5,857 nucleotides of DNA from Candidatus Gerdarchaeota archaeon (GTDB lineage Archaea > Asgardarchaeota > Heimdallarchaeia > JABLTI01): NCBI GenBank assembly GCA_016840945.1, contig JAEORJ010000007.1:1-5857 (forward strand), read 5' to 3'. The position numbers were made by a program, and so were the translations under genes. This document shows positions 1-5,857 of this stretch, one piece after another; the first letter of the stretch is position 1, and the number at the start of each line of letters is the position of its first letter. A model generated the notes under the pieces. That model had not been told where the DNA came from. It did not search any database and saw nothing but the letters and a program-made list of their open reading frames with translations.

Positions 1-605
1 AGGCTTTTGAATCCTTTTTCAAGGATTGTTTTGTAATCAACTATTAAATGCCCACCGGTTGCCCCTAGATTTCCAAAGCCATTTTTATGATATTCGAAAA
101 TCATATGCCTATTTCTTAAATTACCTTTCTCGAATTTCTCATACTCGTTTTTGTTCAAGCATTTTGATAATTGAGTATTAAATCGTCCCCCAGCTAGCAA
201 GTCATTTTCTGAGATGATTTCTTGAGGGATATAATTTAACATGACTTCTTCAACAAATTTAGCTCTTCTAACAGGTAAAGGCTCATCCCAAAAATCATCA
301 GGTAGTTTTACTTCTTGAGCCATTAATTCAATAGACATATTGAAAAGTCCCTTTGTTTTATCACCAATGAAAGCATAAACATCGGGAACAATATAATAAT
401 CCCCTTCATTCCAAATTCTGTCACCCCAAGGAGCTCCAGTTGTAAATGGAGAATATTCATTATTCCACTCTCTGGAATTTCCTAGAAAATAATAATCTCG
501 AAGCCATTTTGCTCGAGGTGATAAATTATGAGGTTCGGCAACCGCAAATTTGGGTTTTGTTAAAGGAGTCTTACAAAATGAATTTAATTCTTCAGATTTC
601 GCCAT
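1..605 (-). CDS. Glycyl radical enzyme (pyruvate formate-lyase superfamily), N-terminal part, truncated by window edge
   Basis: The frame opens at an ATG at 603-605, with an in-frame TAG 15 nt upstream (618-620), and stays open to the window edge, giving 201 residues. Members of this superfamily are usually about 800 residues, so only the N-terminal quarter is visible. The sequence fits the superfamily's N-terminal region: a TTGAPWGD stretch (55-62), PVRRAKFVEE (111-120), the SENDLLAGGRFN segment (132-143) that matches the usual 'E-x-D-L-hydrophobic-G' region, and GATGGHLIVDYKTILEKGF (181-199), equivalent to the family's GH-x-x-x-DY-x-x-x-L-x-x-G element. The active-site cysteine and the C-terminal glycyl radical loop lie outside the window, so the substrate cannot be assigned. 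The extended aromatic-rich N-terminus looks closer to fumarate-adding (benzyl/alkylsuccinate synthase-like) or arylacetate decarboxylase-like members than to classical PflB, which is an impression only. An activating radical-SAM protein is expected nearby but is not visible. Confidence 0.8.
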   Translation of the reverse strand, partial: MAKSEELNSFCKTPLTKPKFAVAEPHNLSPRAKWLRDYYFLGNSREWNNEYSPFTTGAPWGDRIWNEGDYYIVPDVYAFIGDKTKGLFNMSIELMAQEVKLPDDFWDEPLPVRRAKFVEEVMLNYIPQEIISENDLLAGGRFNTQLSKCLNKNEYEKFEKGNLRNRHMIFEYHKNGFGNLGATGGHLIVDYKTILEKGFKS

Positions 606-735: not shown

Positions 736-1461
736 TCATCTCCCGCCTAAGCCAGGGAAGTAATATTTCTTACCTTCAGCATAACTTGCATCTACTCGAG
801 CGATACCAGTTTCTCTCATTGATTCAAGAGCTCTTTCAGAGCGTTCTTGTGACCATTTTGTTTTCAGAATCAATTCCTCTAATGATATCCATCCTTTTCT
901 TGTTGAAAGTGCTAGCACTTCCTCTTGATCATCAGAGAGATTAGCAGGTATAAATTCAACTATAATTACACCACTTTTTAGCTCTCGTAGTTCTGGAATA
1001 AGTTTTGCTTTTGCTAATTTTTCAACAGCTTTTATGACATCATCAGCAGAAATAATTTTACCTGGCCTACCTTTATTTACTAGTAGTACTACTTCACCAA
1101 GGGTCATAATACCACCAGTGTATTCTTGTAATTCTTTAGCTTTCTCGAGTATTTCTACACTCAAACGCTCATAAAAATCGCCACCACCAATTCTATCCCA
1201 GAATGTGGCGCTTTCTTTCCATTCATACACACCCATTTCATCTGGCAGGCCTAACTCTTGTCTAAGCTCAACTAATTTGCTATATGATTCTTCGTTTTTC
1301 TCGATATCTTTCTTCCATTTTTTCTCAAATTTCTTCAGTTCATCACGAAGTTCTCTAACATTCAACAGCATTTGTTCTAAATCTTTAATCATAATTTCTG
1401 CTTCTTTTGTTTGAAACGCTGATTTTACTCTGATTTTCTTTTCTATATCTCGTAAACCCAT
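736..1461 (-). CDS. vps22: ESCRT-II subunit Vps22/EAP30 (SNF8-like)
   Basis: This 241-residue protein matches the EAP30 family along its whole length (human SNF8 is about 258 residues). Residues 1-70 are charged helices with coiled-coil character (LRDELKKFEKKWKKDIEKN at 38-56). The family hallmark FWDRIGGGDFY (88-98) follows, equivalent to the FW...GVGDFY segment of SNF8. Next come two winged-helix domains. The first (about 97-172) contains GGIMTLGEVV and the DDVIKAVEKL helix. The second (about 174-236) contains ANLSDDQEEVL, GWISLEEL, KWSQERSERALE and the terminal YYFPGL, mirroring SNF8 almost element by element. In eukaryotes Vps22 pairs with Vps36 and two Vps25 copies to form Y-shaped ESCRT-II, which nucleates ESCRT-III on membranes. 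Vps36 is a paralogue, and the match is closer to Vps22; in Asgards one EAP30 protein may fill both positions. It is the last gene of the cluster. A weak AAGGA site (1472-1476) lies 10 nt before the ATG. No Vps25 gene is visible. Confidence 0.92.
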   Translation of the reverse strand: MGLRDIEKKIRVKSAFQTKEAEIMIKDLEQMLLNVRELRDELKKFEKKWKKDIEKNEESYSKLVELRQELGLPDEMGVYEWKESATFWDRIGGGDFYERLSVEILEKAKELQEYTGGIMTLGEVVLLVNKGRPGKIISADDVIKAVEKLAKAKLIPELRELKSGVIIVEFIPANLSDDQEEVLALSTRKGWISLEELILKTKWSQERSERALESMRETGIARVDASYAEGKKYYFPGLGGR

Positions 1462-1530: not shown

Positions 1531-1833
1531 TTAACTAGGTATCTTTCTATAGTATTTCTTTAACCACTCATCAATAATTGATTTCAATCTTTCCTGATCT
1601 CTTTTCTCTAGGGGTAATTCCTTTTTTGCGAGGTATTTGTTGTATAAGTATTTCATCTGCGAACGTAATTGTATGGATAATTTATGGCGTTTACCAAAAG
1701 TGCTCTCACATTCATATAGCGCAGCATCAAGTTCTTCCAGTACAAAATCAGCATCTAATGATATCTCGAGATAATTTAATATCTCTACTAAATGCTTGTG
1801 TAAATTTCTATATGCTACTGGATTTCCTCGCAT
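1531..1833 (-). CDS. Uncharacterised 100-aa helical protein embedded in the ESCRT-I/II cluster
   Basis: I do not recognise this family. The gene has a good GAGGT Shine-Dalgarno site (1841-1845) 7 nt before its ATG, the same arrangement as the neighbouring vps28, so it is very likely translated. The protein looks all-helical, with about four helices at roughly 4-25, 28-47, 51-70 and 75-95. It has no signal peptide, membrane segment or cysteine cluster, and the last quarter is lysine-rich (WLKKYYRK at 90-97). The final two helices, joined by KKELPLEKR (70-78), resemble the short helical hairpins by which Vps23, Vps28 and Vps37 form the ESCRT-I headpiece. Compare the hairpin turn FKDGEISPVDF in the window's own Vps23. 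Gene order places it between ESCRT-I (vps23, vps28) and ESCRT-II (vps22). Possible roles, all inferred, are a minimal Vps37-like third subunit, an ESCRT-I/II connector, or a small helical-bundle adaptor. Gaps of 66 and 69 nt separate it from its neighbours. Confidence 0.8.
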   Translation of the reverse strand: MRGNPVAYRNLHKHLVEILNYLEISLDADFVLEELDAALYECESTFGKRHKLSIQLRSQMKYLYNKYLAKKELPLEKRDQERLKSIIDEWLKKYYRKIPS

Positions 1834-1899
1834 TTCAAATACCTCATTTTTTTGTTAGGAGCTCATAATACTTTAGAAAATAAAAGGTTAAGAAAATCA

Positions 1900-2535
1900 T
1901 TATTTTCGTAATGATCTTCTAAAAGCATTTAACCATCTTACAGCTTCGAATTCTAACCTTTTTATTAAGCCTTCATCGAGAACTTCATCAGGTGGTCGTG
2001 CTTCAAGCATTTCTTTCCAATTGGCTATTTCTTTTACAATATCAGAATCTTTACCGTAGCCTGGATATTTAATTAGTATTTCTTCCATTTCATCTAGATT
2101 TGGAACAATCAATTCAATTCTTGCTACTGAACCTAATCTAAGTAAGTCAATTAATTCTATTGAATTGGCAACAAAATCAGCACTTTTAGCTGGAAGATCA
2201 CTCATCTCACCAAAAGGCATAGCTATTGTTTCAATTGATGAATCAGTTGTTATAGGTGTTACTCCTTCAGCAAAGCGTAATTTTTCAGCTCCATATGGAT
2301 ATTTCTTTACAATATCTTCTTTTTCTAAGAAGCCTTCTAAATCAAATCCTTTCTTCTGAAGCTGAAATCTTGCCATGAACGCATCTCGTATTAGTGCTCG
2401 TAATTGTCTACGGTACATTCCAGGATCTAATATACCATCAGCAAAACTATGACTAAGATTATCAATTGTTGCAATACAGGAAAATAATTCTGCTTCTAAT
2501 TCAATTGTTGATTTATTTTTGGACGAATAGGACAT
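1900..2535 (-). CDS. vps28: ESCRT-I subunit Vps28, full length
   Basis: The 211-residue product has the two-part Vps28 architecture and nearly the family's usual length (human about 221). The N-terminal core domain (about 10-90) contains AELFSCIATIDNL, the turn FADGILDPGMYRRQL (31-45) and a helix to FQLQKKGF. This is the hairpin that packs against the Vps23 steadiness box. A loop with GVTPITTD (91-98) leads to the C-terminal four-helix bundle (about 116-210), with DFVANSIELIDLLRLG, IVPNLDEMEEIL, the WKEMLEA segment and a closing helix ending WLNAFRRSL, matching the human order down to the final aromatic-rich helix. In eukaryotes this bundle binds ESCRT-II through Vps36, so the ESCRT-I to ESCRT-II bridge is plausibly conserved. 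The ATG has an AGAGGT site 7 nt upstream, placed in the 13-nt gap after the vps23 stop, which indicates co-transcription and tight coupling. Confidence 0.93.
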   Translation of the reverse strand: MSYSSKNKSTIELEAELFSCIATIDNLSHSFADGILDPGMYRRQLRALIRDAFMARFQLQKKGFDLEGFLEKEDIVKKYPYGAEKLRFAEGVTPITTDSSIETIAMPFGEMSDLPAKSADFVANSIELIDLLRLGSVARIELIVPNLDEMEEILIKYPGYGKDSDIVKEIANWKEMLEARPPDEVLDEGLIKRLEFEAVRWLNAFRRSLRK

Positions 2536-2548
2536 TTTCTTTACCTCT

Positions 2549-3298
2549 TTATTTATTCTCTATCTGTTTATGTATTAGATACAGTTCTTTTGTGTATTTC
2601 CGATAAAGCTTTGAGAAGTCTACTGGACTGATTTCTCCATCTTTGAATTTTTCATCAAGAGTTGAAAGCAAATCAGCTATTGCTACACTCTGAGCTTTTA
2701 ACACCAATACTTCACTTTCACTTTTATCAGTTGGTAAAAGCATATCTAAATTATCAACTTTAGTAATTGTTTCATTAGATGATTTCATTAATTCTGAGCG
2801 AAGTTTACGTAATTCTTCATCCTTATGCTGAATTTTGTCTTGAAGTGTTGTAATTGTTTTATTAACATCATCCACTTCTTTGTTCTTAGTTGGCAAAGTA
2901 TCGATTGCCTGTATCGTTGCTTTTGTTGTTTTTTGTGGCATGTCAGCAAATTTTGGCGGGACTTTATCGAATAATTTTTGGCATTCATGGATAATTTGGT
3001 AAACATGTACATCAGGTTTCCATTCATGAGTTATTCGTAATAGTACATTGCCATCTTTTTCGATATTTGGATGTTGAATGTTTTTCTCTAAAACTATCAC
3101 CCTCGGAGGATATTCTGGGTATTTTAGTGGAACAAATACTTCTACTGGTATTTTTCTTTCACCATCAGCAGTGTTCACTATAATATCGCCTCTCCAACGG
3201 TTCAATTCATTACCTGCGAGTGAAAAGCCCTGAGTATAAGTAAACATTAATTGTGTTTCTCTGGCAAGGGCCATATCGTTTATTTTATTTCGGGACAA
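2549..3298 (-). CDS. vps23: ESCRT-I subunit Vps23/TSG101-like: UEV domain, coiled coil, steadiness box
   Basis: Numbered from the TTG, residues 10-125 form a ubiquitin E2 variant (UEV) domain with the E2 landmarks YPEYPP (60-65), HPNI (76-79), THEWKPD (90-96) and KVPPKF (112-117), aligning closely with TSG101. Where active E2s have the catalytic Cys after HPN, this protein has Leu86 (GNVLLRI), so it should bind ubiquitin or peptide rather than transfer ubiquitin. Residues 140-172 are a charged coiled coil. Residues 195-248 are a steadiness box, with ADLLSTLDEKFKDGEISPVDF and a following helix that match the TSG101 C-terminus. The fusion makes it a true Vps23, shorter than human TSG101 (about 390) because the proline-rich linker is nearly absent. 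The start is uncertain: TTG at 3296-3298 follows GAGGAG (3311-3316) by 12 nt, while an in-frame ATG at 3272-3274 has no ribosome site and would trim eight residues without touching the fold. It is the first gene of the cluster. Confidence 0.93.
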   Translation of the reverse strand: MSRNKINDMALARETQLMFTYTQGFSLAGNELNRWRGDIIVNTADGERKIPVEVFVPLKYPEYPPRVIVLEKNIQHPNIEKDGNVLLRITHEWKPDVHVYQIIHECQKLFDKVPPKFADMPQKTTKATIQAIDTLPTKNKEVDDVNKTITTLQDKIQHKDEELRKLRSELMKSSNETITKVDNLDMLLPTDKSESEVLVLKAQSVAIADLLSTLDEKFKDGEISPVDFSKLYRKYTKELYLIHKQIENK

Positions 3299-3614: not shown

Positions 3615-3622
3615 GAGTGATC
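3615..3622 (+). promoter_or_regulatory. Shine-Dalgarno site GAGTGATC fixing the oppF start
   Basis: GTGATC complements the usual 16S rRNA 3' end (GATCACCTCC), and the site lies at proper spacing from the ATG at 3626. The in-frame GTG at 3617-3619 therefore belongs to the ribosome site and is probably not the start codon. This assumes a conserved anti-Shine-Dalgarno sequence. Confidence 0.6.
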
Positions 3623-3625
3623 ATA

Positions 3626-4720
3626 ATGAGTGAATTTTCATTCTGGGACCGTGTTAAGCAAAGGATGGGTATTTACAAAGCCCCCGCCGTTGAAGAAGAC
3701 GCTGAAATTTATGAGATTCCTGACGACCCTAATTTGCTAGTAGCAATTAGAAATCTTAAAAAACACTTCTTAGTCGCTGGTGGTGGTTTAATATTCAACA
3801 GAACACCAATTTTTCTAAAAGCAGTTGATGGTATTTCTTTTAATGTTAAAAAAGGTGAAACAGTTGGTGTTGTAGGCGAATCCGGCTGTGGTAAATCCAC
3901 CGCTGCAAGAGCAATTCTCATATTACTCAAACCAACTTCTGGCCATGTTTTCTTTAGAAATGAAGACGAAGAAATGGTCGATTTAATGGGATTAGATGCC
4001 CATGAATTACGAGAAATGCGAAGACAAATGCAAATCGTTTTTCAAGATCCTTCAGCTTCATTGAACCCAAGAATGACTGCTTTTGACATTATTTCTGAAC
4101 CATTAGTTATTCATAATGTAGCTTCAGGCGATGAATTAAAAATTAGAACAATAGAATTAATGGAAAAAGTAGGTCTAATGATTCATCATGCTTTCCGATT
4201 CCCACACGAGTTTTCCGGTGGTCAAAAACAACGTGTTGGTATTGCTAGAGCATTAGCTTTAAATCCAAGATTTGTTATTCTCGACGAACCTGTCTCATCT
4301 CTTGATGTATCAGTTAGAGCTGCAGTATTAATGCTTTTAAGAGACTTGCAACGTGAATTTAACTTGGCATATATCTTCATTGCTCATGACTTATCAGTTA
4401 TCAGAATGATTTCAGATACTGTATGTGTTATGTACCTAGGAAGATTAGTTGAAGTTGGCACTGTAGAAGAAGTATTTGAAGATATGAGACATCCTTATAC
4501 TCGTGCTCTAATATCAGCTATTCCAATACCTGATCCTACTGTTAAACCAGAACGTATTTTCCTTGAAGGTGATCCTCCATCTCCCGTTGCCCCACCTCCT
4601 GGATGTAACTTCCATCCACGTTGCCCAATTGCTACATCAATCTGCACACAAGAGGAACCACCAAGAATACAAATTTCACCAACACATTTTGTTGAGTGTC
4701 ATCACGTAACTGCAAAATAA
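3626..4720 (+). CDS. oppF: Oligopeptide/dipeptide ABC transporter ATP-binding protein, OppF/DppF type
   Basis: The 364-residue product (ATG start) is a complete ABC ATPase of the peptide/nickel uptake class. It has Walker A GESGCGKST (84-92), the Q-loop VFQDPSASLNP (138-148), signature FSGGQKQR (196-203), Walker B VILDEP with catalytic Glu221, the D-loop SSLD and switch His254. Beyond the nucleotide-binding domain comes the characteristic oligopeptide-transporter C-terminal region, with HPYTRALISAIP and four cysteines (327, 333, 340, 358) in the CNFHPRC...C...C pattern. In some Opp/Dpp ATPases these bind an iron-sulphur cluster. An N-terminal extension of about 35 acidic residues precedes the ABC fold. 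The protein would sit on the inner face of the membrane and power peptide import with permeases OppB/C, a second ATPase OppD and a binding protein. None of these is adjacent: the gene has its own promoter and terminator, so partners must lie elsewhere. DppF or a related sugar/peptide ATPase is equally possible. Confidence 0.88.
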   Translation: MSEFSFWDRVKQRMGIYKAPAVEEDAEIYEIPDDPNLLVAIRNLKKHFLVAGGGLIFNRTPIFLKAVDGISFNVKKGETVGVVGESGCGKSTAARAILILLKPTSGHVFFRNEDEEMVDLMGLDAHELREMRRQMQIVFQDPSASLNPRMTAFDIISEPLVIHNVASGDELKIRTIELMEKVGLMIHHAFRFPHEFSGGQKQRVGIARALALNPRFVILDEPVSSLDVSVRAAVLMLLRDLQREFNLAYIFIAHDLSVIRMISDTVCVMYLGRLVEVGTVEEVFEDMRHPYTRALISAIPIPDPTVKPERIFLEGDPPSPVAPPPGCNFHPRCPIATSICTQEEPPRIQISPTHFVECHHVTAK

Positions 4721-4727
4721 AACAACT

Positions 4728-5857
4728 TTAGAGGTAATTAATACCTCTACTCTCCTTATTTTTTTCATAGATATTTTCTGTTAATTGTTTGTGTTTTGTT
4801 ACTTTAGCTTTCTCATTCATGAAACCAATTAAAATCATAGACATAAAACATACTAAAGCAGCTATTAAAAACACCCAAGGATATCCACCAAAAACATTCA
4901 ATGTCATATTATCTATTTTATTGTTTAAAATTAACCCTTGAATAATTGTAGCAAATGGTTTGATGATAGTGCCAAATATAAAGAACATTCCTAGAAAACA
5001 GGCTTCTTTACCAATTGGTACCTTATCAGCAGGTAAAACAATTGATAGGATACTAATCATTATATTACCAGCTCCCCCAATCACCATAATTGCATAAATT
5101 GCATTGGGATTTTTCATAAGCGCTAATGCTAAACAAAAAAATCCGTATAGTATGCTGGCAATTATTGCTGAATGATTTTTTTTCATTTTATTTAATATCA
5201 GAATAATGGGTACTAATAGAACTGCTATATAAATTCCCATTACTAAATTACTTGAAGTAGAAGCTATGGTTTGTGTAACTCTAAATCGATCAACCAATGA
5301 ATTTACAATAGATGTTTCTACTAAATGAGTACTAAAAGCCCAAAGTGTGCTAATAATCAATAATATAGTCCAAGTTTTTCCTCCAAACTTCCAGATTATC
5401 TTAGGAATTTTAATAATCTCTTTGATTTTAATAGTAGGTTCAAAATTTGGATTTTTCTTTGGCAGTAAAATTGAGGTTAATATTGCAGTTGATCCAAAAA
5501 CTATCCCTGCAATTATCCAAACAATATTTGATCTATTATTATCAATTAATTTTGAAAAAATCAATAGTGCTACTCCTGCACCTATAGCATTGACAATTGT
5601 AATAAGAGTGCCAATTATTACTCTCTCTTTTTTCTTGAAAAGATCAACAATTAAAGCTAACCAAGGAGCATAAGCAACCCCTAAAGTAATATGACTTATC
5701 ATAAAAAGTAAGATTATAATTATATAACTATAACTGACTCGCTGTAAAATGTTACTTAATAATCCTATGATAAGTAGTATGATTGCTGTTATTCCTCCCC
5801 CTATCATTATTAATGGTGAGCGATTACCAAAATTTGTCCTTATTGAATCACTTAGCA
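4728..5857 (-). CDS. Major facilitator superfamily (MFS) transporter, N-terminus beyond the window
   Basis: The frame remains open upstream of the ATG at 5807 to the window edge. The extra residues, LSDSIRTNFGNRSPLI, match the MFS loop motif (D-x-x-x-R-x-x-x-GxRxP) between helices 2 and 3, so the start lies to the right. About 376 residues are visible and contain ten hydrophobic segments. Numbered from the ATG at 5807 they are roughly 2-22, 25-50, 65-87, 93-115, 145-165, 183-205, 212-230, 234-257, 268-292 and 303-325. With the missing first two this gives the standard twelve helices. The APWLALIVDLFKKKER segment (47-62) after helix 4 resembles sugar/cation symporter-like (GPH/SLC45) members, and a charged 30-residue central loop and a hydrophilic C-terminal tail are present. 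The substrate cannot be read from sequence. The gene converges on oppF with only 7 nt between stop codons. Codons are strikingly A/T- and isoleucine-rich, as expected for membrane proteins in AT-rich genomes. Confidence 0.82.
   Translation of the reverse strand, partial: LSDSIRTNFGNRSPLIMIGGGITAIILLIIGLLSNILQRVSYSYIIIILLFMISHITLGVAYAPWLALIVDLFKKKERVIIGTLITIVNAIGAGVALLIFSKLIDNNRSNIVWIIAGIVFGSTAILTSILLPKKNPNFEPTIKIKEIIKIPKIIWKFGGKTWTILLIISTLWAFSTHLVETSIVNSLVDRFRVTQTIASTSSNLVMGIYIAVLLVPIILILNKMKKNHSAIIASILYGFFCLALALMKNPNAIYAIMVIGGAGNIMISILSIVLPADKVPIGKEACFLGMFFIFGTIIKPFATIIQGLILNNKIDNMTLNVFGGYPWVFLIAALVCFMSMILIGFMNEKAKVTKHKQLTENIYEKNKESRGINYL
4729..4765 (+). terminator. Hairpin plus T-run terminating oppF
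   Basis: TAGAGGTA (4729-4736) and TACCTCTA (4742-4749) form a perfect 8-bp stem with a 5-base loop, and a run of seven T residues (4759-4765) follows. It starts 8 nt after the oppF stop codon. The structure lies within the last codons of the convergent MFS gene, so the two 3' ends overlap and the transcripts may be complementary there. Confidence 0.6.

Follow-up and report, generated by a model that had tools for sequence, protein, structure and literature searches.

The small gene lying between vps28 and vps22 in the window, i.e., the whole stretch of 5,857 nucleotides analysed here, encodes a protein (in the following referred to as X) which is very probably homologous to the C-terminal domain of the ESCRT-I subunit Vps28, as judged from profile comparisons with its Asgard relatives. 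Because the two align end to end, X looks like a free-standing paralogue of this domain. A role of X within ESCRT-I/II is likely. With moderate confidence, we favour a single-domain Vps28-C homologue which is encoded with vps23 and vps28 alongside full-length Vps28 and would serve as an untethered docking module, joining or regulating the contact between ESCRT-I and ESCRT-II. Many Asgard genomes retain X at the same position, where it may help to connect the two ESCRT complexes.

X is a real gene and more than a chance reading frame, since it features a ribosome-binding site, low dN/dS ratios, relatives and a location shared by 43 genomes. A preliminary description of the window had noted a 100-aa reading frame with a ribosome site at 1531-1833 between vps28 and vps22, and all of these elements were confirmed (Table 1). 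The frame comprises 100 codons, starts with ATG and spans exactly these positions on the minus strand; the minus-strand sequence upstream of the ATG, ...aaaaaaatgaggtatttgaaATG, contains GAGGT, and the identities of both neighbours were borne out by the Pfam families VPS28 and EAP30. The gene is separated by 66 bp from vps28 and by 69 bp from vps22. Its dN/dS ranged from 0.047 to 0.143 (seven pairs with usable dS), while vps28 spanned 0.040-0.148 (10 pairs) and vps22 0.021-0.118 (among the 12 pairs listed). For the vps23-like gene, profile comparison confirmed the steadiness box, and the Vps23_core match (1.5e-4) lay under its cut-off. Positions 111-208 of the Vps28 profile (A5) matched the solved Vps28 C-terminal domain 2j9w at E 6.5e-9.

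Table 1. Coordinates of X and the ESCRT features around it in the window.
Feature	Position	Strand	Evidence
vps22-like gene, EAP30 family (ESCRT-II)	736..1461	(-)	Pfam EAP30 9.4e-28
X, putative free-standing Vps28 C-terminal-domain paralogue, 100 aa	1531..1833	(-)	ORF, family and synteny, profile-profile match, purifying selection
GAGGT ribosome-binding site of X	1841..1845	(-)	Sequence; 7 nt before ATG
vps28 (ESCRT-I), 211 aa	1900..2535	(-)	Pfam VPS28 E 6.2e-8, 33.1 bits, cut-off 24.5
Vps28 C-terminal domain, residues 115-210, putatively paralogous to X	1906..2193	(-)	Profile match to 2j9w; X aligned to domain
vps23-like gene (ESCRT-I), UEV and steadiness box	2549..3298	(-)	Pfam UEV 1.9e-9

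The first protein search with X yielded 39 proteins at E<=0.1 among 41 candidates, the window's own included, the others being 59-76% identical. A deep profile of the family (A4, 47 rows) gave 79 matches at E<=1 among 2760 candidates, of which 78 lay at 6.2e-13 or better. The named records nearest to the window are Asgard, Heimdallarchaeota and Gerdarchaeota bins. Four relatives (P0010, P0017, P0036, and P0055) carry the database labels Zixibacteria, Bathyarchaeia or Thorarchaeota and are probably mislabelled bins; the first three are 60-67% identical to X of the window. Among 227 Asgard genomes, the X profile matched 49 at E<=0.01 and 43 at E<1e-10, the latter with one match each. Three of the six weaker genomes were examined (G170, G095, and G175), and their matches lie inside proteins of 335-472 aa. 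X is present in all nine genomes of the order of G003 and in 30 of the 58 genomes of its class, furthermore in 8/8 genomes of the class of G071 and 4/4 of the class of G005, a bin named Baldrarchaeota. A match below 1e-10 is lacking in 139 of the 181 genomes with a Vps28 match (E<=1e-5), and X is therefore not required for having Vps28.

Conservation beside ESCRT genes, a check which the preliminary description had named, was investigated in these 43 genomes, and the position of X is kept throughout. Directly upstream of X lies vps28 or a vps23-28 fusion (42/43, the remaining one being a contig end), with the Vps28 C-terminal domain ending on the same strand 21-104 bp before the X match in each of these 42 genomes. 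Directly downstream follows vps22, with a match within 112 bp (38/43). In four further genomes, vps22 is found about 1.5 kb further on the same strand, and the two of these that were inspected (L007 and L008) feature an opposite-strand gene in between, which in L008 encodes an RsmB/F methyltransferase according to Pfam. In the last genome, vps22 is located 4.75 kb away on the other strand. X stays with vps28 in all five genomes with displaced vps22, so that its linkage is with ESCRT-I and not with Vps22. In 19 loci, a single chain of 464-472 aa unites Vps23 and Vps28, and X is separate there, too. This gene order bears on a reading of X as an adaptor for something other than ESCRT-II, e.g., ESCRT-III, cargo or a membrane factor, which we regard as somewhat unlikely: it would explain why X remains beside vps28 where vps22 lies further off, but vps22 is the next gene in most genomes.

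Some X-lacking genomes feature an other-strand gene between vps28 and vps22 (L094:4901-6355 (-) and L067:2777-4123 (+)), whose product shows zinc-ribbon-like cysteines and coiled-coil-like stretches. This protein was matched in 10/227 genomes (one weakly), none of them with X, and all 10 fall into one run (G045-G058) of a single class; owing to this confinement, the distribution says nothing firm about X. The L094 copy gave no Pfam match. It presumably resembles the Znr_PH_CC_SB protein described in the text of PMC10936438.

The relation of X to Vps28 emerged from comparisons of whole profiles. With hhalign, the X profile aligned to the C-terminal domains of 26 Vps28 proteins of X-lacking genomes over 88 columns at E 2e-8 (score 49.1; best of 100 column shuffles 17.4) and to those of X-bearing genomes at E 5.8e-6 (score 34.9, compared to at most 21.5 in 150 column shuffles and 16.4 on reversal). 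The alignment runs end to end and is collinear over the whole domain with both of these disjoint Vps28 sets. Likewise, comparison of profile A4 (X) with A5 (Vps28) gave E 1.9e-5. As an iterated Vps28 profile drew in Vps23 and X because these domains cross-match, its E-values were set aside in favour of clean profiles containing no X. Conversely, a profile built from fused C-terminal domains only, run on 993 ORFs, matched X of a Baldrarchaeota locus at E 3e-9. Among its matches weaker than 1e-15, the first 15 were all X, and 38 of 54 X ORFs came within E<=10 (both counts include locus duplicates), with the ORFs of the window's clade appearing at E 0.6 or weaker among the matches listed. Moreover, on a selection of 38 X-lacking loci (37 genomes; 1164 ORFs), 12 of the 13 matches of the X profile at E<=0.02 were Vps28, aligned in the C-terminal half among the matches listed. 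The same profile matched a 335-aa Asgard protein (3.9e-5) in a stretch (residues 235-324) which Pfam calls VPS28 above its cut-off. X hence features sequence homology to the Vps28-C superfamily over the whole domain and corresponds to only the second half of the full Vps28 architecture, in which steadiness box and C-terminal domain form one chain.

The alternative that X is an unrelated helical protein, which resembles Vps28-C by chance as helical sequences may do, is very improbable. It would account for the behaviour of the window's own X clade, which on its own gave no match to the Vps28 domain (score 13.5, E 0.11), as well as for the results of the standard databases: direct searches of Pfam, NCBIfam and PDB with X returned chance-level or scattered matches only, with none credible in Pfam and NCBIfam; the X profile reached none of the solved Vps28 structures of the PDB at E<=10; and VPS28 is absent among the best 25 of 67 Pfam families for 47 X members. 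The uneven conservation of six hydrophobic positions that are invariant in Vps28 (see below) points in the same direction. Chance resemblance is, however, opposed by the shuffled and reversed controls, the agreement of two disjoint Vps28 sets, the reverse profile match, the collinearity over the whole domain and the retention of the core tryptophan in most X sequences. As the window's clade alone gave no match and no PDB Vps28 was reached, the assignment of the window's X rests on its kinship to the other X clades, which are related to it at E 1e-16.

Vps28-C-like domains also occur in other settings. Two larger Asgard proteins carry a C-terminal stretch matched by the X profile (L056:5-1423 (-) and L057:3-1010 (+)); in this stretch, Pfam finds VPS28 in L057 and nothing in L056. 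Besides, genome G040 encodes a second, shorter Vps28-like protein of 169 aa (L098:4185-4694 (-)) in addition to its full Vps28.

The preliminary description had favoured a Vps37-like subunit. This proposal is not supported, as X showed neither a Mod_r match nor a steadiness-box alignment and aligns with the Vps28 C-terminal domain instead. Mod_r (PF07200) surpassed the curated cut-off in 0/227 Asgard genomes. Sub-threshold matches occurred in 50 of these and in 4 of 14 control genomes, none of them at an X locus among the matches listed. This agrees with the statement in the text of PMC9192718 that Asgards lack a clear Vps37, and the removal of a candidate archaeal Vps37 is in line with the view given there of Vps37 as a eukaryotic addition. 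X resembles Vps37 in being a small helical protein near ESCRT-I genes, but no sequence relation of the two was found over the 227 genomes.

Further relations were examined by profile comparison. X aligned with the steadiness box of Vps28 over 1 column (score 13.5), with Vps23 over 15 columns only (score 22.3, E 0.007; this score slightly exceeds 21.5, the highest value reached by the column shuffles in a different comparison) and with Vps22 over 44 columns (score 18.9, E 0.03), and none of the three relations was supported. The positive control, the Vps28 steadiness box against Vps23, gave E 1.2e-6 over 58 columns. X does not appear to be a hairpin of the steadiness-box type akin to those in Vps23 and Vps28. 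It is extremely improbable that X forms the third subunit of the ESCRT-I headpiece, be it as a minimal Vps37-like protein or as a free steadiness-box protein packing with Vps23 and Vps28. Such a subunit would suit the gene next to vps28 in 42/43 genomes, the helical appearance of X, the weak 15-column alignment with Vps23 and a precedent, namely the free steadiness-box protein of Lokiarchaeota and Thorarchaeota which may interact with Vps28 by yeast two-hybrid (PMC9192718). It is contradicted by the missing alignment of X with a steadiness box in a comparison where the boxes of Vps28 and Vps23 recognize each other, by the Mod_r result and by the alignment of X with the other half of Vps28. The Lokiarchaeota protein (Hatano et al., 2022, PMC9192718), for which the text gives two-hybrid contacts with Vps28 (may interact) and Vps22, is like X a separate ESCRT-I-related protein beside ESCRT genes; it differs in being a helical hairpin and not a C-terminal bundle, and X did not align with the Vps28 steadiness box with which it was compared. 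The helix-KKELPLEKR-helix pattern, which had suggested a headpiece hairpin, is indeed found in the sequence; the motif lies at about residues 70-78, between the segments which align as third and fourth helices of a Vps28-C-like domain, and the hairpin interpretation would thus fall away.

Besides the whole-length profile match to the Vps28 C-terminal domain (Pfam PF03997, C-terminal half; solved as 2j9w, 2g3k, and 2j9u), 20 aligned positions were compared in 47 X and 42 fused Vps28 domains, and X retains the hydrophobic core in part. Eight positions (Vps28 numbering 129, 134, 147, 177, 194, 201, 202, and 205) are hydrophobic or aromatic in 47/47 X, including the near-invariant core tryptophan (W90 of X, W201 of Vps28; W in 43/47 X). 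X differs from this domain in being free-standing without a steadiness box and in not uniformly keeping nine residues found in 42/42 fused domains, i.e., the hydrophobic V122, I126, L154, W173, F196, and L209 and the polar D130, E195, and R200. Position 130 is D in 8/47 X, and E195 and R200 are mostly replaced; X features its own invariants E33 (47/47) and Y67. The three polar residues were not taken as defining the Vps28-C superfamily and count against an identical function. As they are invariant in the fused domain and differ in X, the partner may differ, and X is probably no mere duplicate of Vps28 but has another binding site or partner. The uneven retention of invariant hydrophobic residues is to some degree an argument against an identical fold, or else points to local misalignment. 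The simplest reading of these residues would be the same fold with a changed surface and either partly changed packing or local misalignment. As a separate observation, the C-terminus of X is basic and could bind membrane; among 12 of the 47 rows, which were examined for it, this character is pronounced in the clade of the window, whereas other clades show it less or not at all.

In a tree of 116 domains, all 67 fused domains are set apart (89/99, drawn open) from X and two Vps28-C-like domains of larger proteins. The two additional domains fall among X with weak support and very long branches; the label X requires 3 changes on the tree, and the share of bootstrap trees with a branch that separates X from everything else is 0%. 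The topology suggests one old origin of X apart from Vps28, and it is a suggestion only on account of the two other domains among X, the few columns and the meeting of long branches. On a bolder interpretation, which we consider unlikely, several Asgard lineages would possess X as an old subunit dedicated to ESCRT-I, which adds a second Vps28-C module, untethered and with a partner of its own. X could then descend from the free domain that was once fused to a steadiness box to give Vps28, or it could couple ESCRT-I to ESCRT-II in the way the Vps36 contacts do in eukaryotes. The adaptor for partners other than ESCRT-II introduced above would gain from the two larger proteins on the X side of the tree, which are placed there with weak support and very long branches, and from the altered polar residues. 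It would be comparable to Asgard proteins which, according to the text of PMC10936438, join the Vps28-C domain to adaptin-appendage or longin domains.

The leading functional hypothesis, as the best inference from the analogy to Vps28, is a connector between ESCRT-I and Vps22. This second proposal of the preliminary description survives, since eukaryotic ESCRT-I binds ESCRT-II through the Vps28 C-terminal domain, and the same is suggested for Asgards (PMC10936438). X would fold as the same four-helix bundle as the Vps28 C-terminal domain and, encoded with ESCRT-I and facing ESCRT-II, would act as an extra untethered docking module which strengthens, extends or regulates the contact of ESCRT-I (Vps23-Vps28) with Vps22-based ESCRT-II. 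This contact would occur in organisms without a reported full-length Vps36: the text of PMC9192718 describes homodimers of Heimdallarchaeial Vps22, and full-length Vps36 was not found there. In view of the changed residues, X is likely to have a site or partner distinct from that of Vps28. Direct binding of X to Vps22 is a tentative assumption with nearly balanced prospects. Alternatively, X might be a competitor for the docking site used by the Vps28 C-terminal domain, the free protein switching off or gating the coupling of ESCRT-I and ESCRT-II. The presence of the same domain in the same gene cluster, unattached to ESCRT-I, would be expected of such a regulator, but the loss of polar residues invariant in the fused domain would not be expected of a competitor for the same site, and we hold this reading to be quite unlikely. 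As the docking module, the competitor and the adaptor for other partners all share the same fold, their probabilities overlap.

The kind of protein is already known in a sentence or two, since the text of PMC10936438 (mBio, 2024) states that some Asgard genomes encode the Vps28 C-terminal domain separately and in addition to full vps28. This wording fits X, which may be one of the proteins meant; that text offers neither a fixed position nor a breakdown by order, and neither a tree nor a residue comparison, and beyond its sentences no description of X was found in the accessible literature text. The distribution, the fixed position and the divergence of X were worked out here. For the heimdallarchaeote AB125, PMC9192718 names HeimAB125_14070 as Vps23-28 fusion and, in its results, 14050 as Vps22, while its methods assign 14040 to the Vps25 model as well as to the Vps22 model; the main text nowhere mentions a gene 14060. 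By its numbering and the synteny of X, 14060 should be X. If X is an ESCRT subunit, the reconstitutions described for this group in PMC9192718 miss a component, and adding X would make a meeting of ESCRT-I and ESCRT-II without Vps36 directly testable.

Apart from the ESCRT genes, the window contains the N-terminal 201 codons of a gene running off its end (3-605, minus strand), which was without a Pfam or NCBIfam match. Its motifs ENDLLAGG and GGHLIVDY look like those of a glycyl-radical enzyme of the pyruvate formate-lyase-like type. On the other side, the ESCRT genes are accompanied by an oligopeptide-type ABC transporter ATPase (3617-4720, plus strand) and an MFS transporter (4728-5807, minus strand).
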